Shown here: positions 22,124-35,494 of the stretch, in pieces | Position numbering within the stretch: the stretch's first letter is position 1 | Layout: every line of letters starts with the position of its first letter | Assembly (NCBI GenBank): GCA_027357065.1 | Contig: DAHVVZ010000009.1 | Coordinates: 1 to 35,494, forward strand | Length of the DNA: 35,494 nt | Direction of reading: 5' to 3' | DNA from: Candidatus Saccharimonadota bacterium | GTDB lineage: Bacteria; Patescibacteriota; Saccharimonadia; Saccharimonadales; UBA4665 | Notes under the pieces: model-generated | What the model was told of the DNA's origin: nothing | What the model saw: only the letters and a program-made list of their open reading frames with translations | Databases searched by the model: none | Translations under genes and position numbers: made by a program

Positions 22124-22198
22124 AACCATCAATCATTTGCTCGCCAGATGGATGTTCAGTTATAATCGACCTGTTCAGTCGCCAACAGATCCATTTAT

Positions 22199-22273
22199 TC
22201 CGGGGTAGCTCAACGGTAGAGCGGGACGCTGTTAACGTCTAGGTTGCTGGTTCGAATCCAGTCCCCGGAGCCA
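22199..22273 (+). tRNA. tRNA-Asn (anticodon GTT), CCA encoded
   Basis: Acceptor TCCGGGG/CCCCGGA, anticodon loop CTGTTAA, T arm CTGGTTCGAATCCAG, discriminator G then CCA. Confidence 0.95.
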
Positions 22274-22337
22274 TGACTTGTGTTAAAGGTGTTTTGATTA
22301 TATAATATATCCTATCACGTCTGTTATTTCAGAAATT

Positions 22338-22370
22338 TAAGTTGCTTATTACGTAGGCAACTTATTTTTT
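22338..22370. terminator. Intrinsic terminator
   Basis: Perfect 8-bp inverted repeat taagttgc / gcaactta followed by ttttttattt. Confidence 0.7.
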
Positions 22371-22440
22371 ATTTGTAGCAAGCGCGCATCTGATATTCCA
22401 GTTCTAGACCGGAATACGTTCGAAGCCCGACTTATCCGCC

Positions 22441-22788
22441 TTATCCTCGCAGTTTTCGTATACGCTCTCTTACTGACTCCTGATATTGAGCAGGGTTTTG
22501 CATCTGGTGATAAGCACGAACTGCTATAACCTCAAAACGGTTATCATCCACTAGATATATAATCGCTACTTTGTGGTTTTCCATTTGGACTTTACGAATG
22601 TCTGGATCATCTGTAAACACAGCATTAGACCTTGGCAGGATTTCCAAGTTTGACACAGTCTCCATCGCTTCATCAAAAAACTTTGTGGCCGATTCGGCAT
22701 CTACCAGCTCTTCATAAAATGCCATAAGCTCGGCAATATCATTCTCTGCATCTTCTGTAAGATTTACGCTATACTTTTGCACCAGCAA
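22441..22788 (-). CDS. RelE/ParE-family toxin
   Basis: KYSVNLTEDAENDIAELMAFYEE ... IRKVQMENHKVAIIYLVDDNRFEVIAVRAYHQMQNP. Confidence 0.85.
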   Translation of the reverse strand: MLVQKYSVNLTEDAENDIAELMAFYEELVDAESATKFFDEAMETVSNLEILPRSNAVFTDDPDIRKVQMENHKVAIIYLVDDNRFEVIAVRAYHQMQNPAQYQESVRERIRKLRG

Positions 22789-22936
22789 GCTCCTGATATT
22801 TTTTTAAAATATCTTGCTTGGCTTTGCTAAGGTGTATACGATTTTTAGGATTTTTAGCAAGCTTAATGCGTCTTTCCAGCTCAAGCCGGAACTCTGGGCT
22901 TTTTTCATCTACATTAATAACTTTGCTTCTTTTCAT
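22769..22936 (-). CDS. Small antitoxin partner of the RelE/ParE toxin (below the ORF-track cutoff)
   Basis: 55-aa ORF MKRSKVINVDEKSPEFRLELERRIKLAKNPKNRIHLSKAKQDILKKYQELAGAKV*; its 3' end overlaps the toxin start. Confidence 0.75.
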   Translation of the reverse strand: MKRSKVINVDEKSPEFRLELERRIKLAKNPKNRIHLSKAKQDILKKYQELAGAKV

Positions 22937-22980
22937 GGTTTTATTGTATCACATTTGCCACATAAAATATACGCCAAACC

Positions 22981-23068
22981 TTGACAATTTACAGGGGTAA
23001 GGTAAAGTAAGGCGAGCCTAAAATTCAGGTGGTAGAAACGTCTGGTTCGAATCCAGTTCCCGGAGCCA
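22981..23068 (+). repeat. att-like module R2: 63-nt upstream block plus tRNA-Asn 3' tail (25 nt incl. CCA)
   Basis: TTGACAATTTACAGGGGTAAGGTAAAGTAAGGCGAGCCTAAAATTCAGGTGGTAGAAACGTCTGGTTCGAATCCAGTTCCCGGAGCCA; last 25 nt match the tRNA-Asn 3' end with one mismatch. Confidence 0.9.
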
Positions 23069-23119
23069 AGCATAAGCACTTTAGCGAAACCTAATTCGAT
23101 CTACTTGCATTTTCGCTTA

Positions 23120-23947
23120 TTACAAATTAACGATTAGGTTGTCATGCCCAATAATAAAACTATCGTTTTGATATTTTTGTACTAAAATTTCGTGTTTGTT
23201 CATGTGTCTGCTCATATGCACTGTATATGTTTTTGCTGCATTAATTTTAGTTTGTAAATCTATGACTTCGTCAACTGTCATGTGAAACCATTCTGTACCT
23301 AAATTAGGGGTAGGCATACCGCAATCTATATATACCCTTTTTACTTGTTCTATGTCTTCCGAGAAGGTATCGGCGAAGAGTACATCAACATTATTGAGCG
23401 CCTCAATCGTTTCAGGATTAAGTTTGGAATTTGTATCCGTCACAACAGCAATTTTTTTATCTTTATAGCTAAATATAAACCCGCTCGTGGGGAATCCATG
23501 ATTCAGCTCGATTGGCAGAACTGATAGATCAGTTGTTAATTGAATTTTTTTAAAATTATCGAATGTTCTAAACGTAAGTACTTCTTCATTTTCTAAATAC
23601 TTCCAATACTCCATGAGCTTATGATTGAGAGAATGATTACCAAACCAAAGTGTTTGTGGCGCTGATCTCCTAAAAAAGAACTCCCCTAAACCGTTAACAT
23701 GGTCAGAATGATGGTGAGTAATAAATATATGGTCAATGTCTTTTAACTCTAAATTTGAATTTAAACACTCCCACTTTAGATCAGGATTTGGGTCAACCAA
23801 GATTTTCAGATTGTCTATTTCAAGCAAAAGTCCAAATCTATATCTTTTAGAATGAAGGTCTAGGCACGTATCGCAGCTACAGCCTGCTAGAGGAGTACCT
23901 AAAGTGTCGCCCGAACCGAGAATTATAATCTTAATGCTTGGAATCAT
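23120..23947 (-). CDS. MBL-fold hydrolase, PhnP/PqqB-like
   Basis: IIILGSGDTLGTPLAGCSCDTCLDL, IFITHHHSDHVNGLGEF, VVTDTN, VHMSRHMNKHE. Confidence 0.85.
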   Translation of the reverse strand: MIPSIKIIILGSGDTLGTPLAGCSCDTCLDLHSKRYRFGLLLEIDNLKILVDPNPDLKWECLNSNLELKDIDHIFITHHHSDHVNGLGEFFFRRSAPQTLWFGNHSLNHKLMEYWKYLENEEVLTFRTFDNFKKIQLTTDLSVLPIELNHGFPTSGFIFSYKDKKIAVVTDTNSKLNPETIEALNNVDVLFADTFSEDIEQVKRVYIDCGMPTPNLGTEWFHMTVDEVIDLQTKINAAKTYTVHMSRHMNKHEILVQKYQNDSFIIGHDNLIVNL

Positions 23948-24225
23948 ATAGCTTCTTTATCGCTTTCTGGGCAGTTGTACTATTAATTATCGCCTTCATT
24001 ACACTCATATTATTATATATGTGGCGCAAGTTAGCTTCTGAATTAAAGTTGCGAAGCTCGTCCACTAGAGGGAGCCAGGCCAGGCCAAGTCGAGCTATAC
24101 CCAGACCGAGTTCCGTAGCCAAAAGTCACACACATTCTTTTGTCATACAGAAATGCATCGTGCTGATTACAAGGCGCGAAAGTAAGAACCATCCGAAAGC
24201 GCGGTTTTCGCTTTATTACTCCTAA

Positions 24226-24290
24226 AGTCCAGTCCGTAAACTGACCAGTTAAACCCCTGGAAACTGGACGGCGAGAAAGCCGACGGACTT
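24226..24290 (+). ncRNA. Candidate structured RNA (three-way-junction-like inverted repeats)
   Basis: Nested pairings agtccgt/acggact (7 bp) enclosing ccagtt/aactgg (6 bp) and cggc/gccg (4 bp) inside a non-coding intergenic region. Strand is not established. Confidence 0.3.
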
Positions 24291-24434
24291 CTGTGACTGA
24301 CCTTCCTCTAAGCCAACAAAAAAATAAGCTATTCAGTAAACTCTAACTGACCGTTCCGGATCTGCAGTTTTGTTTTCATACAGACGACATGCATATTTTT
24401 CATAGATGAAATAGTAAGGCGTATGATATGGGTA

Positions 24435-25076
24435 ATGAATCTATACCTATCCTCATACGGCATTCCGGCTCCTCGAGAGCTTGAGAAATTGCTTAACATA
24501 ACCTTGCAGGCCGCTAAGGTTGCACTCATTCCTAATGCCAAAGATTATTTAGCCCAAGATGATAGAGATACCAAAATTAAAGCATACATAGCCAAGTATC
24601 TTCAGCCGCTTGGTCTTAACGTTGACGTGATTGACTTGCGAGGCTACAACGACTTGGTAGCCCTAGAGAAAACCTTACGCAACTACAATCTCGTATGGGT
24701 GATGCCAGGCAACACGTATGTGCTTCGTTATGAGATGCAGCGTAGCGGATTTGAAAACATCATACGCGAGCTCTTAGCTTCGGGCGTTGTGTACGGCGGA
24801 GGTAGTGCGGGAGCGCTCGTGGCGGGAATGTCCATTGACGGCGTTGAGGCGATAGACAACCCTGTATTTGCGCAAGCTTTAATAAACGAAGGCTTGAACT
24901 TAGCGCCTTACATCATTGTCCCTCATGCCGACAACGCTGAGCTTTCCGGTCTTTTACCGAGTATGCAGGCAAAGCACCTAGACAAGCAGTGTATTGAGCT
25001 CAATGATTCACAATCAGCGGTGATTACAAACGATAGGTATGTAATCGTAGACGCAGAAAAGTCAAGTCGGAAGTGA
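24435..25076 (+). CDS. Peptidase S51 (dipeptidase E-like)
   Basis: VALIPNAKDY, LVWVMPGNTYVLRYEM, nucleophile elbow VVYGGGSAGALVAGMSI. Likely start MNLYLSSYG at 24435; the track ORF starts at 24423. Confidence 0.85.
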   Translation: MNLYLSSYGIPAPRELEKLLNITLQAAKVALIPNAKDYLAQDDRDTKIKAYIAKYLQPLGLNVDVIDLRGYNDLVALEKTLRNYNLVWVMPGNTYVLRYEMQRSGFENIIRELLASGVVYGGGSAGALVAGMSIDGVEAIDNPVFAQALINEGLNLAPYIIVPHADNAELSGLLPSMQAKHLDKQCIELNDSQSAVITNDRYVIVDAEKSSRK

Positions 25077-25228
25077 TAGAATAGCTCACTGTACAAGACG
25101 CAAGAACAAGCAGGTGTAGACCGTTTGAGCACTGCACAGCGCAACGAGCGAAAATAATATCACTGATATATATTTGCTATTAACGCAAGATGTAGTATCC
25201 TAAATGTAATCTTAAATGACTGGTTTTT

Positions 25229-26548
25229 ATGGCCGAAATTTCACCCGAAAGCGTTCCTAGTGATCTATACCTAACTACTGACGAAGTTCGAGCTATGTTC
25301 TTGGATTTCTTTATGAGGAAGGGGTATGCACATCACCCTAATGTCGGTGTCATCCCCGAAAACGACCCAACGCTCTTATTTATAAATTCTGGGATGGCTC
25401 CGATGAAACCCTTCTTTACCGGCGAAGCCACGCCTCCAACTGATCAACTAACAAACGTACAAGACTGTATTCGCACCGGCGATCTCGATGATGTAGGTGA
25501 TTCGTACCACGGCACGAGCTTCCATATGATGGGCTCATGGCAGTTCGGCGACCGATTTAATAAAGAACAGGCAATCGAGTATGCGTATGAACTTATCACA
25601 GACGGCTTTGGATTAGACCCAGACTACCTGTTAGCCTCTGTTTTGAATGATGAAGCTAAGGAACAAGGAATTCCTAAGGACGAAGAAGCAGCCCAAGCCT
25701 GGGCAAAGCTACTCCCAAATGAGCGAATAATCTGGCTGCCACCATCCGACAATCTATGGGGGCCTCCGGGCACTAGCGGACCATCTGGTCCTTGCACCGA
25801 AGTCTTTTTCGACCGAGGTTCTGGCTTTGAGGAAGGTTACGACAACGTAGCATTGCGAAAGGGTCGGCATATCGAAATTTGGAACGCAGGCGTGTTTATG
25901 ACTCACCACGTAGCAGAAGATGGCACGGTTACTCCACTGGCATCGAAGAGCGTTGACGGCGGGGCGGGACTTGAACGTATCGCTATGATTCTGCAGAACG
26001 CGCCCAGTATACATGAAATTGATAAGTGGCTTCCGGCCTACGATGTAATTCGCACCGACAACCAAGATACTCGTTCGGCTCGTATCGTCATCGACCATAT
26101 ACGCACTGCCGAAATTCTTGCTCGCTCAGGTGTGATTCCAGGCAACAAAGCCGGTCCGTACGTGCTGCGGACTCTACTACGCCGCGCCATGACTACGCTC
26201 GTGCAAACGGGGATTGAGCAAGGTCGTTTGCTAGAGTACCGTGATGCTATCTGCGAACAAATGGATGAAGTACCCGGCACCGTTCGGACACATAATGAAG
26301 TAAGTACAATCTTCGCGAAGGAACGTGACGCATTCGCGAAAATCCTTCAGCGCAGCGAGCGGCTCCTGGCACCCATTGTCGCTCGAGGCGAGACGACGGG
26401 CAACGAGCTATATAAGTTGCACGAGACCCACGGCATACCAGTAGATATTTTACGCGAGACCTGCAACAGCAACAATATCCAATTCCCAGAGGAAACGTTT
26501 GCCGCCGCCCGTAGTAAGCATGCTGAAGAGTCTAGTGCCACGAAGTAG
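25229..26548 (+). CDS. Alanyl-tRNA synthetase N-terminal (catalytic)-like protein lacking editing and C-Ala domains
   Basis: AlaRS-like: NDPTLLFINSGMAPMKPFFTG, CIRTGDLDDVGDSYHGTSFHMMGSWQFGDRFNK (motif 2), GPSGPCTEVFFDRG, IEIWNAGVFM, GGAGLERIAMIL (motif 3), DHIRTAEILARSGVIPGNKAGPYVLRTLLRRAM. Ends at 439 aa. Confidence 0.85.
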   Translation: MAEISPESVPSDLYLTTDEVRAMFLDFFMRKGYAHHPNVGVIPENDPTLLFINSGMAPMKPFFTGEATPPTDQLTNVQDCIRTGDLDDVGDSYHGTSFHMMGSWQFGDRFNKEQAIEYAYELITDGFGLDPDYLLASVLNDEAKEQGIPKDEEAAQAWAKLLPNERIIWLPPSDNLWGPPGTSGPSGPCTEVFFDRGSGFEEGYDNVALRKGRHIEIWNAGVFMTHHVAEDGTVTPLASKSVDGGAGLERIAMILQNAPSIHEIDKWLPAYDVIRTDNQDTRSARIVIDHIRTAEILARSGVIPGNKAGPYVLRTLLRRAMTTLVQTGIEQGRLLEYRDAICEQMDEVPGTVRTHNEVSTIFAKERDAFAKILQRSERLLAPIVARGETTGNELYKLHETHGIPVDILRETCNSNNIQFPEETFAAARSKHAEESSATK

Positions 26549-26624
26549 ACACTGAACGTATACAATCGATGGTAAATCAATCCCAAGAAACTTTGTACTA
26601 ACGATAAAAGGAGTAATCAGACCA

Positions 26625-27326
26625 ATGCCTTCCCCTAACCAACTCATTCTTGGCACGTGGCAGTTCGAAACTATCGATGAGCAGACCGCTGCCGCGCTTG
26701 TGGCACAGGCCCACGACACTGGTATCCGTACGTTCGATACGGCAGCCGTGTACGCTTGCGGGAATGCGGAACGCATACTTGGTAAACACCTACATACTAG
26801 TGACACTATTATTACCAAGACCACCGCGGTACGCAAGGGCATACCATCAATTGCCACTGCATATCCTAAGCAATATATTGAAGAGAGCGTAGCCGGATCA
26901 GTAGAACGCCTTGGCCGGATGCCAGACGTCATGCTCATGCACAACTGGGACGAAGCTTGGGAAGCTGATCCAGATACACCAGCCACAATAGACAAATTTC
27001 GCACTATATGCACCCAGCAGGGCATACCCCTAATCGGCATCTCCCTGCCGAATGGATATAGTGGCAGTTTAGAAGCACATGCCAACATATTGGATGCGGT
27101 TGATTGCCTTGAAGCTCCATATAACCAGGACTCGCCGAGTCTCAGTGCTCAACGACTTTCAACGTTATCATCAACAATGCCAGTACTGGTTCGTAGCATT
27201 TTTAGGCATGGCAGAGACACCGAAAAGATAACCTCGAGACTACAAGAAGCGGTAGCAATTAGTGGCCTCGTTGTCGTTGGTGCGACAAAGCCAGAACAAA
27301 TTCAGCAATGGAGCACCGTACTATGA
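26625..27326 (+). CDS. Aldo/keto reductase family protein
   Basis: LILGTWQF, GIRTFDTAAVYACGNAERILGK, TKTTAV, DVMLMHNW, VVVGATKPEQI; RBS aaaggag upstream. Confidence 0.82.
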   Translation: MPSPNQLILGTWQFETIDEQTAAALVAQAHDTGIRTFDTAAVYACGNAERILGKHLHTSDTIITKTTAVRKGIPSIATAYPKQYIEESVAGSVERLGRMPDVMLMHNWDEAWEADPDTPATIDKFRTICTQQGIPLIGISLPNGYSGSLEAHANILDAVDCLEAPYNQDSPSLSAQRLSTLSSTMPVLVRSIFRHGRDTEKITSRLQEAVAISGLVVVGATKPEQIQQWSTVL

Positions 27327-28561
27327 GTAGAGGCGAGACAAACCCCTTTACTGCTGGATGTGCCGCCGATAGGGCAAATCAAGAAGTATTCATACCCGTC
27401 ATCGGAAGACGGACCGGTACAGAGTTCAAAATGCGTGAATTCACCTATGGTGTACTCGATTCAGATCCGCACAGCCCATTGTCTTGCGTGAGCGTAGCAA
27501 ATTCCTCACTGAGTGTTGACTTATGGAAGGGTTGTGCATGGCAGTGTAGCTACTGCCACGTGCAGGGCGGGCTGCAAGATTTAGACCCAGAAACCCTAAC
27601 TATGCCCAAACGACCAGAACCGCGATCGCGCTTTGAGGTCGAAGATGTGGTCGACGCACTGGTTGAACACCCTTTCTTTGAACGTAATAAGTCAGTCATA
27701 AGTATAGGCACGGCAAGCACTGAACCTTTTGCGCGTGGACCGGTTTCCGATTCGACATTTGAAATAATGGAGCAATTTGTCGCCAGGGGCTACAAAAATC
27801 CGTTCTGGGTTGTAACCAAAGCTGGCTTTCCTAAGGGCTATGAAGAACGCTTGAAAAGTGTTACGGAAAATGGGAACCAAGTTATGATTTCTATTTGCTG
27901 GGCCAATAACCCTAAGCATGTCGAGCCCGTACAAACAAACCGTTTCCGCAATGTGCAGGCCGCGCACGAAGCTGGCGCAACCATTAGTTGGTACTTACGC
28001 CCCCTCGCTGACAGCTGGAGTATTGATCCAACAAAGTTAGCAGAAACTTTCGAGACTGCCAGTAAATATGCGCCCTGGGTTGACGAAATTATCCCCGGAG
28101 GCTTGCGCTGGACAATGGGGATTGAGTACGGTGTAAATGAAGTACGCGGCCAAGAAATGCCTAATATTCCTCACAAAGATAACGTCAAAGACTTGAGTGA
28201 AGAAACCTGGGTTCTTATACACGAACTCGCAGAAAAGTACTTCCCGGGCGTACCGCTGTACCACAAATCTTCATGTGGCTTGAGCTTGATGCTCGAAGCC
28301 CCCAACCATAACCTCGTGCAGCGTCATAATCGTGATGCCTGCGAAGCGTCGACGTGCCCGGCCGCACAACGTGACCGATGTGAGTCATACCAAGTCCCTG
28401 GTCGCAGCGAGCTGCAGCACCGTCTTGCCACTATCGGTCTCAAAGAAATCGAAGTTGTTTCAGTTGATCAAGGCACTGGGAAGGTAACAACGAAGCCCGA
28501 ACTTGGCACACTAACATTTGCGCTCAAGCACTTGGTCGAAATACAAACCGCACGAGAGTAG
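27323..28561 (+). CDS. Radical SAM protein
   Basis: CX3CX2C motif LWKGCAWQCSYCHVQGGLQ. Start overlaps the AKR stop (ATGA). C-terminal Cys cluster CEASTCPAAQRDRC. Confidence 0.88.
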   Translation: MSRGETNPFTAGCAADRANQEVFIPVIGRRTGTEFKMREFTYGVLDSDPHSPLSCVSVANSSLSVDLWKGCAWQCSYCHVQGGLQDLDPETLTMPKRPEPRSRFEVEDVVDALVEHPFFERNKSVISIGTASTEPFARGPVSDSTFEIMEQFVARGYKNPFWVVTKAGFPKGYEERLKSVTENGNQVMISICWANNPKHVEPVQTNRFRNVQAAHEAGATISWYLRPLADSWSIDPTKLAETFETASKYAPWVDEIIPGGLRWTMGIEYGVNEVRGQEMPNIPHKDNVKDLSEETWVLIHELAEKYFPGVPLYHKSSCGLSLMLEAPNHNLVQRHNRDACEASTCPAAQRDRCESYQVPGRSELQHRLATIGLKEIEVVSVDQGTGKVTTKPELGTLTFALKHLVEIQTARE

Positions 28562-28565
28562 GCCT

Positions 28566-29309
28566 ATGGCGAAGAACACGGAAACTCCCAGGATTATCGA
28601 AGCTATTACGTTGCTCGACCCCAATGCAGCTATATTAGCGACGGATCATAATCCCGAAAGTGCGACCGACTTGCTTGTCGTAGGCGAGATGCCGCGCGAC
28701 GTGTACATAGAAAAGCTGAATGAATCTGCCATACTGGCACATTTCACACGTAAAAGAAGTGACGATGCACTTATTATTACTGCTGACAATGGATCCGCCT
28801 GCGGTGTTGCGTACTACGAGCAAAAATTGTTCAGCACGCGAATTCAAGCAATTGCAATGGGGCGCGAAGTTGACCCTATCGTGAAACCATGGTCAGTTGG
28901 GCCTTGGCTACCAGAAGCGTTTGCAGCAGATCTGTCCCAGGCACATGTACTACGGTCGAATCCAGCTGTCGAAAAAAAAGTCGCTCATTTTACAAACTAC
29001 CCGGAAGGGATGCGACAAGGCATACTGCAGCGTTGCATCGAAGAGATTACGATAAAAGCGAATCGCATGGGTCGTACAGCAGAAACGGTTAAAGACCTCG
29101 CATTCACCCAAACAGCTGCTGATATATGCATGGCAGGTATACGTGTAGCGCACGCCCGAGAGCGAGTGTACTTTCGTGGCCTACGATATGTGGATGAGAC
29201 CATACCAAAGCTCTCAGAGGGAGGCAGAGCGATTGCTAGTGAGCTTAGCACTACAGCCAACTACAGAGTAGCACTGGAGCTTATAAATCTTGGTTCGAGA
29301 CAGCAGTAA
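28566..29309 (+). CDS. Uncharacterised protein of the AlaRS-like/rSAM cluster
   Basis: ATG 4 nt after the rSAM stop; 247 aa from ATG 28566 (track ORF 263 aa). No family recognised with confidence. Confidence 0.7.
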   Translation: MAKNTETPRIIEAITLLDPNAAILATDHNPESATDLLVVGEMPRDVYIEKLNESAILAHFTRKRSDDALIITADNGSACGVAYYEQKLFSTRIQAIAMGREVDPIVKPWSVGPWLPEAFAADLSQAHVLRSNPAVEKKVAHFTNYPEGMRQGILQRCIEEITIKANRMGRTAETVKDLAFTQTAADICMAGIRVAHARERVYFRGLRYVDETIPKLSEGGRAIASELSTTANYRVALELINLGSRQQ

Positions 29310-30444
29310 GCAGCCAGTCAACTACCTCTTGGTCTAGCCCGTATGTTTGCTTATAGTCGCCGTAGTCTTCTTCTGTCGGTTGCTCGCCATGTCTGAGCAT
29401 ACCTTTCATAACGACACGCGTACCTTGCCGTAGTAAGCGTTCGAATCTGTCCTCTTCAGACCTGTAAATACCAACAACACGCTCGGGCTCAACAGCTAAG
29501 CCATGAGCTTGAATCGTATCTCTTATAACCGCGTCCATTATAATTTCTGGGGCATGCAGCCGAGCACGTACGAGCTCTGCAAACACCTTGCGAACAATGT
29601 ACTGCTCAGCCTTGGGGCCTGGCATAACATCGCATGACACCATGACGGCAGCCGCTCGTGCAAAGTCGGTAATACGACACGCAGTACCTTCATCAAGCCC
29701 ACTGAGCGTGCGCCTTGCATGTACCCAACTGGCAACTTCATAATCAGTACTCAGCCCATTAGCCGCTGCCGTCAGTCGATCTATACTTGCCCCCGAGTCA
29801 AACGCCACGATCCCTAGCGGGGACCTTTTTTCATCAATACCTTCGTGGGTCGTAAATACTATGTTCCACAGCTCGGTCGTTACTCCATCTGTTATCCTGC
29901 CAAGTTCGACTCGAGTACCACTTCGGCGTCTTTGGTTACACACGTGCGTGTTATCTTCGCTCACCAATAGCGTAGGCTCTAATCCTTCAAGCACAGTCAT
30001 GGAAAGAACATCGTCTGGGTGCACACGGGCAAATAAATTCTGGATGCCCAGTTGCTGCAATGTCGCAACGGCCGACGTAATAGCAAGTTGCTTAGCGGCA
30101 GCTTCGCCAAATTCAAAGAAACTAAAATGTCCGAGCATATCAAATGCAATATGGTGACGACCAGTACGCCCGACCTTACTCAGGCCATTTGCACGTATGC
30201 AACGCTGGACTGACGCCTGGCGGGGGTAAGCTGGTGGATATTGGTCACCAGAAAGCACATCCTCATACTGAACGCCGCCTGAAATGTTGAACAGTAACGT
30301 AGGGTTATCTGTTCTAATATCAGCGTTTATACCAAACTGAAACCCATAGCCCGAGAGCACCATTTGCGCAACATCAATTACCTCATGCTCGTCCATCGGC
30401 TCAAGGCGATACGATAGTTCGTGCGTACGTTTATCTTGAGACAT
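29281..30444 (-). CDS. Second, divergent AlaRS catalytic-domain-like protein
   Basis: TDNPTLLFNISGGVQYEDVLSG, SVQRCIRANGLSKVGRTGRHHIAFDMLGHFSFFEFGEA (motif 2-like), TELWNIVFTTHEG, DSGASIDRLTAA (degenerate motif 3), ITDFARAAAVMVSCDVMPGPKAEQYIVRKVFAELVR. Confidence 0.8.
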   Translation of the reverse strand: MSQDKRTHELSYRLEPMDEHEVIDVAQMVLSGYGFQFGINADIRTDNPTLLFNISGGVQYEDVLSGDQYPPAYPRQASVQRCIRANGLSKVGRTGRHHIAFDMLGHFSFFEFGEAAAKQLAITSAVATLQQLGIQNLFARVHPDDVLSMTVLEGLEPTLLVSEDNTHVCNQRRRSGTRVELGRITDGVTTELWNIVFTTHEGIDEKRSPLGIVAFDSGASIDRLTAAANGLSTDYEVASWVHARRTLSGLDEGTACRITDFARAAAVMVSCDVMPGPKAEQYIVRKVFAELVRARLHAPEIIMDAVIRDTIQAHGLAVEPERVVGIYRSEEDRFERLLRQGTRVVMKGMLRHGEQPTEEDYGDYKQTYGLDQEVVDWLLTAVSNQDL

Positions 30445-30494
30445 ACTTTATACATTTATCATATCTATGTGTTTCTGTATATAAGCAATAAAAT

Positions 30495-30580
30495 TTGACG
30501 TTTAATAGAGTTAAGTTAAAGTCAAACAACTTAAAATTAGGTGCTATAAATGCTTGGTTCGAATCCAGTCCCCGGAGCCA
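30495..30580 (+). repeat. att-like module R3 (86 bp) ending in exact tRNA-Asn 3' tail
   Basis: TTGACGTTTAATAGAGTTAAGTTAAAGTCAAACAACTTAAAATTAGGTGCTATAAATGCTTGGTTCGAATCCAGTCCCCGGAGCCA. The last 25 nt match tRNA-Asn exactly. Confidence 0.9.
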
Positions 30581-30615
30581 AGCATAAGCACAATGATTAT
30601 TGGTATAATTTGTGT

Positions 30616-31149
30616 ATGCCACATATCCATACAGCTGATGGTCAGCATGATTTTACCGTAGGCGCTTATATAATAAGACAAGATATCGAAATGCCGAAAG
30701 CTCTTCTGCATTTACACAAAAGAAGCGGTATGCTTTTTCCAATTGGCGGACACATTGAACTTAATGAAACGCCCTGGCAAGCATTAGCTCGCGAAATAGC
30801 CGAGGAATCTGGCTACGATTTTTCTCAATTAATGGTATTACAACCTCAAAATGGATTAAGGACGCTCTCCGATGTAACAGCTCATCCAATACCTGTAGTT
30901 ATTAGTGATCATGATGTAAGCAGTACTCACTTCCATACAGATTTAGCGTATGCATTTATCGCTGATGATTTTCCTACAAATAATATAGACAAATCTGAGT
31001 CACAAGATTTAAGATGGTTAACGCTAGATCAAATAAAAACTTTAAATGTAGACATTATCTATCCAAACACAAAAGAAATATACACTTTTATAATAAATAC
31101 TTGCCTAAAAGACTGGGATAGAATAAGCGTTAATAAATACAAGCTATAA
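30616..31149 (+). CDS. Nudix hydrolase
   Basis: Nudix box GGHIELNETPWQALAREIAEESGYD; likely start MPHIHTADGQHDF at 30616 (track ORF starts 30550, inside R3). Confidence 0.9.
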   Translation: MPHIHTADGQHDFTVGAYIIRQDIEMPKALLHLHKRSGMLFPIGGHIELNETPWQALAREIAEESGYDFSQLMVLQPQNGLRTLSDVTAHPIPVVISDHDVSSTHFHTDLAYAFIADDFPTNNIDKSESQDLRWLTLDQIKTLNVDIIYPNTKEIYTFIINTCLKDWDRISVNKYKL

Positions 31150-31245
31150 ATCAGACATATTTATAAACTAGTAAAAAAGATTAATTCTTAAGACTGACAT
31201 TATTACGCAGATACAGTAATATAGTTTTTATATTTTAGGGGTTGC

Positions 31246-31506
31246 ATGGAGCACGATCCTTCTGTAAAAGTACCTGAAGCAAACGAGACCCTCGATAATT
31301 ACACTTCGGGTAAAATTGGTGGTCTTCAAAAACTGCAGCGCTTAGACGCAGATGTACCACCATACATAACTATTGGCGCTGATTTGTCTGAACCTGAAAT
31401 TAATGCATTATTAGAGCATCTTGATTCAGCAAGAAAAGAAATGCATAAGTTGGGTTATAAGCCATTATCTAAAGGTTTGGCCTCAATTCCTCACCCGATG
31501 CCTTAG
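31246..31506 (+). CDS. Small uncharacterised protein
   Basis: 86-aa ORF, no recognised family. Confidence 0.5.
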   Translation: MEHDPSVKVPEANETLDNYTSGKIGGLQKLQRLDADVPPYITIGADLSEPEINALLEHLDSARKEMHKLGYKPLSKGLASIPHPMP

Positions 31507-31604
31507 ATAGAACAGATATTTTTAGTCTCTAAATTACACTCAAGCTCTTAACAGATAAGAAGGATTTCAAAATAGCCTCACCTTATGCGATAGTATAGAC
31601 ATAC

Positions 31605-31800
31605 CTAAATTCTAGAACCAAACGCAACCTGCGTTAAGTCTAGCTGTTTATCCTGGTTCTGCGCAAGCCAAGCATAGACTTCCTGTGGTGTATGCCATTG
31701 CAGTCGTTTCCTGGGCTTGTTGTTTAGCTCCCAAGCAATGTTATCTAATAGGGGTTTGTGAGTCTTGCGAGATATCACAAGCCTCTTTATTAAGAATTTT
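31605..31800 (-). pseudogene. IS30-family transposase C-terminal remnant
   Basis: ISRKTHKPLLDNIAWELNNKPRKRLQWHTPQEVYAWLAQNQ resembles the IS30 C-terminal 'LNxRPRKxLxxxTPxEv' motif; no DDE core present. Confidence 0.7.
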
Positions 31801-31818
31801 ATAGCTTCTAGTTTACTA

Positions 31819-31854
31819 TTGACACGTGTATACATGTATATGTATACTGTATGC
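31819..31854 (+). promoter_or_regulatory. Promoter/operator of the vapBC-like operon
   Basis: TTGACA, 18-nt spacer, TATACT, ATG 6 nt downstream; spacer contains palindrome TATACATGTATA and GTATAC repeats. Confidence 0.6.
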
Positions 31855-32103
31855 ATGAGTAACATACAATATACAATTCGAAATATTCCCGAAGATTTGG
31901 ATAAAAAGCTACGCCTAAGATCCAAAAAACGTGGTGAGAGCTTTAATAAAACCTTAATCCAAGCTCTGAGTTCATCTACCACCCTAACTAACACGTCTAG
32001 CGACATAGACTGGTTTTACGGTAGTGGCGGTATAGGCAGCGAGGAACTGCAAGCTTTTGCAGATCAACGTATAATCGATAAAGCTGCCTGGAATCTAAAA
32101 TGA
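31855..32103 (+). CDS. VapB/FitA-like ribbon-helix-helix antitoxin
   Basis: MSNIQYTIRNIPEDLDKKLRLRSKKRGESFNKTLIQAL; overlaps the PIN toxin start. Start chosen at 31855 (track ORF 31765). Confidence 0.8.
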   Translation: MSNIQYTIRNIPEDLDKKLRLRSKKRGESFNKTLIQALSSSTTLTNTSSDIDWFYGSGGIGSEELQAFADQRIIDKAAWNLK

Positions 32104-32495
32104 AAATTGCATTAGATACGAATGCCTACTCTTCATTGCAAATAGGCAATGTACCTACCTTAAAAAATATCGTAGACGAGGTAGAAGAGATAATATTGCC
32201 ATTTATCGTAGTCGCCGAGCTAAAAGCAGGTTTCCATAAGGGTCAGAAGAAAGTCGACAACTACAAAAAACTAGAAAAGTTTATAGGCATGGACAGGGTG
32301 CAATTACTTTGGGCTGACGATCTGACTAACGAACTCTACGCACGAATCTGGTCAGATCTTTCAAAACTAGGTAAACCTATTCCAACTAACGATATATGGA
32401 TTGCTGCTGTTTGCGTACAGCATCAGCTAGTATTAGCCACAAATGATATCCACTTCAGCAATATATCTTTGCTTCAAACCGTCAATTTTGAATGA
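32100..32495 (+). CDS. VapC-like PIN-domain toxin
   Basis: KIALDTNAYSSLQIG, FIVVAELKAGF, PIPTNDIWIAAVCVQHQLVLATNDIHFSNI. Confidence 0.9.
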   Translation: MKIALDTNAYSSLQIGNVPTLKNIVDEVEEIILPFIVVAELKAGFHKGQKKVDNYKKLEKFIGMDRVQLLWADDLTNELYARIWSDLSKLGKPIPTNDIWIAAVCVQHQLVLATNDIHFSNISLLQTVNFE

Positions 32496-32573
32496 TTTTT
32501 CCAAACTATTTTTTTGCAGTTTAGTTTCACTTAACAAATTCTTAATCATGCCAGCATGCACATATACTAAATA

Positions 32574-32593
32574 GGTTCGACTCCAGTTCCCTC
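32574..32593 (+). repeat. Degenerate tRNA-Asn tail-like fragment R4
   Basis: ggttcgactccagttccctct resembles ggttcgaatccagttcccgg; the upstream block is not clearly conserved. Confidence 0.45.
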
Positions 32594-32601
32594 TAACGTA
32601 T

Positions 32602-32949
32602 TTATTTGCTAAATAAGCCGAACAATTTCTTTAATTCGTCTACTACGGCATTTTGGATCTCGGTCGACGCATAGCCAAGCTGTTCCTTTAAATCAATAAA
32701 AGGAAGAGGCGCAATCCGATGCAGCCTAATTGTTGAAGGTCGCATAAGGCCCAAGTCTTTGTAGTTATCTATAATAGGTATGTCGCCTTTAAGTTTGTGG
32801 TCTGCTTTTTTCGAATAAATTGGGGCTACAAGCAATATATTATGTTCGCCAACGGGTTCACTTATAGCAATGACCGGGCGCAGTTTTGAAGTGTTTTCTT
32901 CTATAAAACCTATTTCAGCGATATAGATATTCCACTGAATAATAGGCAT
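32602..32949 (-). CDS. MazF/PemK-family toxin
   Basis: IIQWNIYIAEIGFIEENTSKLRPVIAISEPVGEHNILLVAPIYS... RPSTIRLHRIAPLP. Confidence 0.8.
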   Translation of the reverse strand: MPIIQWNIYIAEIGFIEENTSKLRPVIAISEPVGEHNILLVAPIYSKKADHKLKGDIPIIDNYKDLGLMRPSTIRLHRIAPLPFIDLKEQLGYASTEIQNAVVDELKKLFGLFSK

Positions 32950-32950
32950 C

Positions 32951-33220
32951 TTAGAAGTTCACTTTCTTCCCCATGCCTAAGTGGTAAATATCCTCTTCGG
33001 GATCATCAAGATAGCCACCGATACTATATGAATGTGCTGTCATTGCTCTAACTTCGGCTATATCATTATCTTCAGTTGTATCCGCAATAAGTTTTGACAA
33101 ACCCACTTTTAAAATTTCTGGGTCACTAAGAGTTGGGTAGCGTCTCTTCGCCAACGCTAAAGCTCTCGTTACTTCAGGTGTGCGTGTTAATCTTATGGCT
33201 GATGGGATTAATGTACTCAT
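32951..33220 (-). CDS. Antitoxin partner of the MazF-like toxin
   Basis: MSTLIPSAIRLTRTPEVTRALALAKRRYPTLSDPEILKVGLSKLI..., immediately upstream of the toxin (track start 33226). Confidence 0.7.
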   Translation of the reverse strand: MSTLIPSAIRLTRTPEVTRALALAKRRYPTLSDPEILKVGLSKLIADTTEDNDIAEVRAMTAHSYSIGGYLDDPEEDIYHLGMGKKVNF

Positions 33221-33270
33221 ACACATATTCTACCACAAAGTGTGCATAATCAACACTAAGTGTAAGGAAT

Positions 33271-33358
33271 TTGACAATTAGCAGAGGCAAGTTAAGGTAA
33301 AGCGAGCCTAAAATTTAGGCGGTCGTGGAGTTTAGTTCGAATCCAGATAGGGGAGCCA
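33271..33358 (+). repeat. att-like module R5 (88 bp), same architecture as R2/R3
   Basis: TTGACAATTAGCAGAGGCAAGTTAAGGTAAAGCGAGCCTAAAATTTAGGCGGTCGTGGAGTTTAGTTCGAATCCAGATAGGGGAGCCA; first 45 nt match R2 at 38/45 by hand count. Confidence 0.9.
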
Positions 33359-33428
33359 AAAAGCCTATATTTTAAAGGGGATCCAGTAGCATTCATGCGG
33401 CTAGATTTTAATTTGATAAACTGTGTCT

Positions 33429-34133
33429 ATGATTCAAAAAATAGTCATAACTCCAGTTGTAGCCATACCCTTAATAAAACCGGGTGATGATATATCGAGC
33501 ATAATCATCGACTCAATTCAAAAGAATGGGATTACTCTGAAAAAGCACGACATTGTTTGTGTAGCATCGAAGATTATTTCAATTTCAGAGAATAAGTATG
33601 TTGACCTCAAAAATATTACGGCTACACCTCAAGCAGAAAGTCTGCATAAAACAGTCCCCAGGAAAGACCCGCGCGTTATCCAACTAATCATTGATCAAGC
33701 CGGCAGAGCAAAAGAAAATATCAATATAACCGGTTCTTGGATAGGGGCAAAGAATCATATCGGTAGAGTTCTAACTAGTGCTGGAATTGATAAAATAGAC
33801 GAGAACACGGTCTTGACCCTACCTGACAATCCCGATTATTCAGCTAGTAAAATCGGAGAAAAAATTAAGTCAGAGCTTAATAAAAGTGTAGGAGTTTTAA
33901 TTACAGATAGCGACGGCAGGGAGGGCATCAACGGTGCAACTCAGCTGTGTATCGGCCTTTACGGAGTACCGCCTATTCGCAAAAAGGATGATTCGCCTGA
34001 AACCGCCTGTGATATGCTTGCTGCAGCCGCAGGTCTTGTGATGGGGCAGAGAGGCAATAATATCCCCGTAGTAGTGATAAGTGGTTATAAATATACATTT
34101 AACAGCAGCGTCAGACTGAAAGACGCATACTAA
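33429..34133 (+). CDS. CofE-like (F420-0:gamma-glutamyl ligase family) protein
   Basis: PVVAIPLIKPGDDISSIIIDSIQKNGITLKKHDIVCVASKIISISENKYVDL, KDPRVIQLI, LTLPDNPDYSASKIGEKIK, VGVLITDSDGREGINGATQLCIGLYGV. Confidence 0.82.
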   Translation: MIQKIVITPVVAIPLIKPGDDISSIIIDSIQKNGITLKKHDIVCVASKIISISENKYVDLKNITATPQAESLHKTVPRKDPRVIQLIIDQAGRAKENINITGSWIGAKNHIGRVLTSAGIDKIDENTVLTLPDNPDYSASKIGEKIKSELNKSVGVLITDSDGREGINGATQLCIGLYGVPPIRKKDDSPETACDMLAAAAGLVMGQRGNNIPVVVISGYKYTFNSSVRLKDAY

Positions 34134-34298
34134 GTTTAAGATCAGTACGCTGAGCCAAGCATATTAATTTTTGAGCGTATGCTCGTTATCAACTCTTTTT
34201 AAATTCGAGAATGTATCCCTAAAGGATGCTGAGGCTTAAGAGCATAGCATTAACTAAATTGACGGGTTTAAAGACTATTAACTTTAACTTCATTGTAA

Positions 34299-35322
34299 TA
34301 AGCCCCAGTTGTCTAGACACTTACGCATAAGCTAATCTCGGCTTCCAATAGGTATTAAAGTATTCCAGCGGTGGCAGGTTCTTGCAGCTGGAGTGGCGCC
34401 TAAATAAATTGTACTCGTCTTGCCAGATATTCATCTTTGAATTTAATGAGGCTGTATCTAGGTTTGCTGCCTTTGTTACCGAGTAGAACTCTTCTTCATC
34501 GGTCCTGTGACTACGCTCTACAAAGCCATTGTGTTGTGGCGTACCTGGACGAGATAGTTTATGCTCAATACCTCTATCCATTAAGTAGAGGGTTAGTGGG
34601 TGTACTCTTCTGAGCTCATGGTCCGCCTTCTTGGTGCCTCCGGCATAAAGATTAGTGAAAGTAGCGTGGTTGTCTGTTTGTACGCACTCAATCTCAATAC
34701 CAATGTCCCGGTAGAACTGAAGGGCTTCTGTAACGAAGGCAATAGAGTTTCCATTAGACAATCCACCCATAACCCTGAGGTAACGAATCTTAGAAGTAAT
34801 ATCTATAGCTGTAAACTGATGTTTTCGACTTTTACGTTTATCTCCATCGTTTGGCACAGCCTTAGTATCTACTTGGAGTCTGTAGCCTGGATATGGAGCA
34901 TAGAAGGGTTGCATAGCTCTCTTTTTAGGTTTCCGTTGCTTTTTAGCTAGGCCAGTAGCCTCAATGATGTTTCGGATGGCTTTCTCTCCTACGACAACAT
35001 TAATATCTGCCAGCTCATCCCTAATACGCTTCGGGCCGTAGTTGGTGGCTAATCTTATTTGGATAACTAGCTCTTCAATATCTGTAGCTGTTTGCCAGAA
35101 GACAGCACCTCTTGGACCTGTTTTCTGTGGGGTTATCTCTACTTACCAGTTGTAGATCGTTCCCCGACTTAGTCCATATCTTCTGGCTGCAGTACTCACA
35201 CCTAATTTATTAACATCATTTAATACTCTAGCCCTGTAATCTAATACTTGTCTCTTTGTTAAATATTTCTTCATACACATACCCATATTTTAGAACAGAA
35301 GTGTTCAGTAAACTGGGGCTTA
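34299..35322 (-). mobile_element. Insertion sequence with DDE transposase and terminal inverted repeats
   Basis: Left end taagccccagttgtctagacactta; right end reads in reverse complement taagccccagtttactgaacacttct. Transposase lies between. Confidence 0.85.
34321..35274 (-). pseudogene. DDE (rve-type, IS3/IS481-like) transposase interrupted by an in-frame TAA
   Basis: MKKYLTKRQVLDYRARVLNDVNKLGVSTAARRYGLSRGTIYNW*VEITPQKTGPRGAVFW...YRLQVDTKAV...CVQTDNHATF...HNGFVERSHRTDEEEFY. Stop at 35143-35145, same frame on both sides. Confidence 0.8.
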
Positions 35323-35327
35323 GTATA

Positions 35328-35352
35328 GATTCGGGTTATACATACCCGAATC
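35328..35352. repeat. Perfect 9-bp inverted repeat hairpin just right of the IS
   Basis: gattcgggt-tatacat-acccgaatc. Confidence 0.6.
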
Positions 35353-35426
35353 ACGAATTAGACGCATAAAGTAAAGCACGCTAGAATTCTCTTGTAAATA
35401 TTTCAAAACAAACAGGAGAAAACAAA

Positions 35427-35494
35427 ATGCGTGCTTTACAGAAACATCATATAGTAGACGTTTACACTTGGGTAGATGACAGTCTACCCAAAGA
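35427..35494 (+). CDS. Start of a CDS truncated by the window end; possibly a transposase
   Basis: RBS-like aggag then ATG: MRALQKHHIVDVYTWVDDSLPK...; too short to assign firmly. Confidence 0.45.
   Translation, partial: MRALQKHHIVDVYTWVDDSLPK

Follow-up and report, generated by a model that had tools for sequence, protein, structure and literature searches.

What assembled the genes that follow the single tRNA gene of this contig, and which enzyme moved them? The window analysed here is the whole of contig C15 (35,494 nucleotides) of the Candidatus Saccharimonadota draft genome G000, which is 599 kb long and 82% complete. Its sole tRNA gene by ARAGORN, tRNA-Asn(GTT), is followed by cassettes that are closed by copies of the 3' tail of the tRNA. 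Most of the genomes compared with it are drafts assembled from metagenomes, each standing for one species, and they show the cassette junctions, the shared cassette ends, the recurrence and reshuffling of cassettes, and the association of one clade of large serine recombinases (LSRs) with the same tRNA genes. The likely explanation is that non-autonomous integrative cassettes accreted in tandem at the tRNA-Asn 3' end, with an LSR of ~430 amino acids (aa) acting in trans.

A cassette array at the 3' end of tRNA-Asn

The 25-nt tail of tRNA-Asn is found again on the forward strand at 23044-23068 (one mismatch) and 30556-30580 (no mismatches). The tail repeats exceed chance; no 25-nt copy appeared in 100 dinucleotide shuffles. 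All tail copies share one orientation, as the first-pass annotation of this DNA had stated in proposing a tandem array of cassettes. Two further copies that it had listed are less complete: the tail at 33334-33358 is degenerate, yet the unit surrounding it (33271-33359) is 78% identical to 22981-23069 over 89 nt, and the copy at 32574-32591 is decayed, with a match to the T-loop half alone and GAGCCA missing. The downstream sequence said to be common to two repeats is indeed present, AGCATAAGCAC lying directly 3' of the tails at 23069-23079 and 30581-30591. Two additional junctions are located at 24077 and 34157. The former is of a second kind, here called type B (AAAGTTGCGAAGCTCGTCCACTAGAGGGAGCCA), which had been overlooked; in a comparison with G010, G039 and G045, the G010 junction proved near-identical. 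The features are as follows.

22199-22273 (+), tRNA-Asn(GTT) (ARAGORN; Rfam tRNA, 68.9 bits), anchor/attB, with insertions abutting the encoded CCA
22274-23068, cassette E1: ParE/RelE toxin at 22441-22788 (-) (Pfam ParE_toxin) with a small antitoxin open reading frame (ORF) upstream
22981-23068 (+), right-end module a (102 bits): promoter-like box, hairpin and tRNA tail
23069-24077, cassette E2: metallo-β-lactamase-fold hydrolase at 23120-23947 (-) (Pfam Lactamase_B_2); left end AGCATAAGCAC, type-B right end at 24045-24077
24078-30580, cassette(s) E3: S51 peptidase, AlaRS-like protein, aldo-keto reductase, radical SAM-like protein, unknown protein of 263 aa, second AlaRS-like protein
30495-30580 (+), right-end module b (79.6 bits), exact tRNA tail
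30581-32591, cassette(s) E4: Nudix protein, 86-aa ORF, VapBC-like pair; left end AGCATAAGCAC, decayed right end (32574-32591)
32592-33358, cassette E5: MazF/PemK toxin (Pfam PemK_toxin) and antitoxin
33271-33358 (+), right-end module c (91 bits), degenerate tail
33359-34157, cassette E6: F420 ligase (CofE)-like protein (Pfam F420_ligase); right end ...GTACGCTGAGCCA
34158-35494, E7: incomplete, running to the contig end; contains an insertion sequence (IS)-type transposase ORF

The cassettes measure 0.8-6.5 kb, hold mostly one or two genes and are rich in toxin-antitoxin pairs. The cargo read earlier from the sequence (toxin-antitoxin, AlaRS-like/radical SAM, Nudix plus VapBC, MazF and CofE-like genes) is matched by Pfam, with S51, tRNA-synt_2c (twice) and Aldo_ket_red in E3 and NUDIX and PIN in E4; the radical SAM and FitA-like ribbon-helix-helix matches fall below the cut-offs. 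No site-specific recombinase is encoded within 22150-35494, in agreement with the first reading, and the ORF lists of the cassettes contain no common transposase. The decayed right edge of E4 is backed by a homologous MazF cassette that begins at 32598. The gene cargo of E3 spans 24423-30444, includes two AlaRS catalytic-domain paralogues of 439 and 387 aa, and may form a tRNA-dependent biosynthetic cluster. An IS-type transposase remnant occupies 34321-35270 at the contig end, with an rve_3 ORF at 34321-34914.

The tail closes a module of ~88 bp that consists of a promoter-like box, a covarying hairpin and the tRNA tail. Among 60 relatives searched, members of several genera carry this unit no more than a few kb from tRNA-Asn. 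A covariance model matched 67 of 246 genomes of the order (E<=0.001); since the weakest matches include the tRNA gene itself, genomes with true modules are fewer than that. Among 53 distinct module copies, 48 contain TANNNT and 50 keep a spacing of 16 bp between it and the TTGACA-like box. Compensatory changes in the hairpin number 22 cells as against 5.6 in shuffles, with many G-U pairs, and the signal is lost on sliding. The test covered one hand-named hairpin of five pairs and its shuffle control leaves relatedness in, so the covariation supports, and does not prove, an RNA. RNAalifold predicted no pairs and no global fold from an alignment of 56 modules, and Rfam contains no known RNA family for the module. 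The box and hairpin lie just before the tRNA tail at 22981-23068 and in other modules, an arrangement that could yield a small RNA spanning the junction. Decayed tRNAs were considered as the source of the modules and rejected, ARAGORN and Rfam being negative and the first ~60 bp being conserved non-tRNA sequence.

In nearly all loci that hold both, the type of tail follows the tRNA upstream: Asn tails lie behind tRNA-Asn, Met tails behind tRNA-Met (G008, G505, G036, G012, G385 and G000) and Gln tails behind tRNA-Gln (G018). The tails are not target-site duplications, for in G024, G054 and G405 the module and the resident tRNA have different tails that agree only in the last bases. This suggests that the tail is part of the element and that exchange takes place within (G)GAGCCA, which would leave the tRNA whole.

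Type-B ends have AGCATAAGCAC after CCA at the left and GTTGCGAAGCTCGTCCACTAGAGG before CCA at the right. The left end is present in 49 of 246 genomes of the order and, in a separate draw, in 2 of 268 outside it, and it follows the CCA of tRNA-Asn, -Asp, -Arg and -Gln and also lies near tRNA-Leu. A phylum-wide spread of AGCATAAGCAC was tried and rejected: 6 of 22 order genomes carried it compared with the 2 of 268 outside, the latter being close to what the reversed control gave. Separate type-B arrays exist in G042 (at tRNA-Asn and tRNA-Gln, and close to tRNA-Leu) and in G045 (at tRNA-Asn).

Shared and reordered cassettes in relatives

The left flank of the array (smpB-tRNA-Asn) is syntenic in relatives and only 64-76% identical. 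In three of them (L075, L110 and L027) the tRNA-Asn gene is split by a group I intron of ~230 bp (Rfam RF00028). Downstream of the tRNA, the ParE, MazF, CofE and AlaRS-like cassettes of the window occur elsewhere in other combinations and mostly end at CCA. The left end of E1 is common to G000, G036, G004 and G012, where similarity starts at the AGCCA junction despite different upstream DNA. The part of E1 from ParE to the module is 79-83% identical in G036, G472, G493, G496 and G035, ending at CCA in four of these. E5 has homologues in G493 (84% identical over 718 bp) and in the G472 array (75% over 806 bp); the latter array holds both ParE and MazF cassettes with a different neighbour between them. 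The homologue of E6 in the G013 array (73% DNA identity) loses similarity at 34158, which makes a real junction of what had been noted as a possible edge remnant at 34152, and E1 and E6 homologues stop at the same CCA junctions. A homologue of the E3 AlaRS-like protein (57% identity) is encoded directly downstream of tRNA-Asn in G006 (L105). Because the cassettes are more similar than the left flank and are differently ordered, they have evidently been gained, lost and shuffled, and the region is not a fixed core. With cassettes that vary among relatives and modules that are not decayed tRNAs, neither of the findings that the first-pass annotation had named as fatal to its tandem array was obtained.

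A second array is present in G000 itself, where tRNA-Met on contig C31 is followed by two cassettes, each closed by a Met-tail module.

Locus L284 (contig C31), 7311-11442, tRNA-Met array of G000: BrnT-like/antitoxin, SWIM and AbrB-like/PIN cassettes

Over 4.1 kb this array and that of G505 (L291), a genome of another genus, are 97.7% identical; the match stops at the CCA that closes the second module, and core DNA aligns at 66-69%. In G405, a single scaffold contains the tRNA joined to TAAAAAATCC, a run of Ns, a module tail joined to GACCCAGC and, 5.2 kb later, a module joined to TAAAAAATCC. The simplest reading is that an empty site, a circle (or tandem; attP-like) junction and a right junction (attR) were sampled from one population.

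The candidate recombinase and the rival explanations

A tyrosine recombinase, as implied by the first-pass annotation, was rejected as the array enzyme. Most relatives carry exactly one Xer-like tyrosine recombinase (PF00589), and it is not beside their arrays; no such gene was found in G000 or in the array genome G013, which is 94% complete. By contrast, a search with PF00239 revealed that LSRs adjoin tRNA genes in relatives. Sixty Saccharibacterial loci were chosen solely for holding an LSR gene, and in 50 of them the 3' end of a convergent tRNA lies no more than 350 bp away, compared with 1 of 131 other large ORFs. The tRNA targets span many isoacceptors. LSR genes of many clades (L160-L219) end at or in the tRNA 3' end, the reading frame often overlapping the tRNA.

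One clade of ~430-aa LSRs (Resolvase, Recombinase and Zn ribbon domains in Pfam) is monophyletic (support 100/100) and contains Asn, Met, Gln and Ser tRNA groups, its subclades tracking both the tRNA and the left-end type. Its gene lies further inside its element and is often distal in arrays. The elements that carry it have the same left end (GACCAAGCA...GACC..GTTCC..GACC) and the same tRNAs as the cassettes that lack an LSR, and LSRs with all three domains are encoded in elements sharing these ends in relatives L100, L195 and L300. When bacterial loci were collected by the ~430-aa LSR alone, 28 of 33 had a convergent tRNA-Asn, -Met or -Gln gene or a module within 6 kb. The array recombinase is thus probably not a tyrosine enzyme, and the shared ends and shared targets suggest that the ~430-aa LSR clade moves the cassettes.

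The following model would account for these arrangements. Each cassette would arrive as a circle bearing a single att site, made of the right-end module and the left end. Recombination would occur within the last bases shared with the tRNA, (G)GAGCCA. The left end of the incoming cassette would then become the sequence that follows the tRNA, and the displaced junction would shift one cassette downstream. Catalysis would be provided in trans by an LSR of the ~430-aa clade, encoded by a longer element with the same ends.

Several points weigh against this model. The evidence consists of assembled sequences, and no excision, circle or recombination was directly observed. The ~430-aa clade was not found in G000, an assembly that is 82% complete; the LSRs of this genome are distant ones only (26-27% identical, at tRNA-Gly and tRNA-Gln), for which reason action in trans or loss is proposed. 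The two AGCATAAGCAC left ends and the type-B right end in the window have no recombinase tied to them. A Gln-like tail lies behind tRNA-Met in G004 (L107), the one exception to the match of tail and tRNA. The G505 contig is only 4.2 kb long and could be mis-binned, and the G405 junctions could stem from the scaffolding of a tandem.

Movement of the cassettes by the single Xer-like tyrosine recombinase of most relatives, in the way that integrons and IMEX elements depend on tyrosine recombinases, is unlikely. One such enzyme per genome and the presence of AGCATAAGCAC on several tRNAs would suit a host-wide activity, and tyrosine integrases are the enzymes of classical tRNA islands (PMC4383910). 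However, the gene is unlinked to the arrays and was not found in the array genomes G013 and G000, and it is the LSR subclade that tracks the tRNA and the left-end type.

We give little credence to a frozen graveyard of old islands whose tails recombined homologously after natural transformation, spreading and reshuffling them without any site-specific system still at work. The tails at 32574 and 33334 show partial decay, the cognate LSR was not found in G000, and identical tails would permit homologous exchange. Such exchange is at odds with the sharp CCA edges with unrelated DNA beyond, with tails and left ends common to genera that have only ~65% identity between their aligned cores, and with the co-occurrence of empty-site, attP-like and attR sequences in the G405 assembly.

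It is barely conceivable that the repeats are left over from a tandem duplication of tRNA genes, or represent a conserved RNA gene, rather than being attachment sites: the tail equals the exact 3' part of the T-arm plus the 3' acceptor strand and the module has its promoter-like box and hairpin, but the modules are not called as tRNAs and their left ends, contents and edges behave as mobile units.

Relation to known systems and meaning for Saccharibacteria

Integrons carry small, same-orientation, toxin-antitoxin-rich cassettes at one anchor site, with the recombinase acting in trans. The array described here has the same layout, and the earlier term "integron-like" is apt to that extent; it fails for the mechanism. 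The anchor is a tRNA and the candidate enzyme is a serine recombinase, usually distal. There is no IntI-type tyrosine integrase next to an attI site (no PF00589 match in G000, and Xer-like genes away from the arrays in relatives), nor are there attC sites with their conserved fold, the junctions comprising a promoter-like box, a short hairpin and a tRNA tail.

The staphylococcal cassette chromosome (SCC) elements, pseudo-SCC elements and composite islands of staphylococci use an LSR (Ccr), and elements without ccr are stacked at the 3' end of one gene between direct repeats. The present arrays share the tandem stacking of dependent elements, between direct repeats, at the 3' end of a single gene and, by their candidate enzyme, the LSR-type system. 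Here, however, insertion is at tRNA genes rather than the rlmH 3' end, with LSRs neighbouring tRNA-Asn, -Met, -Gln and -Ser; the cassettes are mostly toxin-antitoxin or enzyme cassettes of ~1 kb, the att module bears promoter-like and hairpin parts, and the host is of another phylum.

Tycheposons belong to marine cyanobacteria, are larger and are based on tyrosine recombinases, and they hold cargo bounded by tRNA tails, some without a recombinase of their own. The tail-bounded cargo and the absence of a recombinase from some elements recur here; the three other traits set tycheposons apart by description, and of these the recombinase is the one examined here, with no tyrosine recombinase linked to the arrays.

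The tRNA islands defined by Islander, and tandem accretion as in cis-mobilizable and integrative and conjugative elements, likewise combine a tRNA gene with a displaced fragment in the same orientation, as found here, and include tandems with defective members. Islander admits the members of a tandem only where every one carries an integrase of its own, and only tyrosine integrases, not serine integrases, are known there to target tRNA genes (PMC4383910). The members of the present array lack an integrase, no tyrosine integrase was found in G000, and the linked enzyme in relatives is an LSR. The open-access literature searched held no pertinent description of Saccharibacterial LSR/tRNA elements. 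The array works much as an integron or an SCC composite island does but belongs to neither class, and the most fitting label is a tRNA-anchored variant of the LSR integrative elements that have dependent cassettes.

A wider reading, which we offer tentatively and hold to be rather doubtful, is that of a distinct, order-wide Saccharibacterial gene-capture system of LSR-driven, tRNA-anchored arrays. Its att module would double as a small transcription unit, with the promoter-like box at its constant 16-bp spacing, the covarying 5' hairpin, the tail and a terminator in the left end, and the junction RNA might act in target choice, cassette expression or control.

Serine recombinases at tRNA genes run counter to the published statement that no serine integrase is known to use such genes, and the integron/SCC principle of dependent cassettes with a shared recombinase would extend to tRNA-targeting serine recombinases. 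A set of LSRs with the target tRNA legible from sequence would be useful for studies of LSR specificity, and these enzymes are possible genetic tools for the hard-to-engineer Saccharibacteria. The genomes of these bacteria are very small. The arrays would represent widespread modular swapping of single genes at fixed safe sites in them, with toxin-antitoxin pairs foremost among the cargo and metal-transport and restriction-modification genes in relatives.

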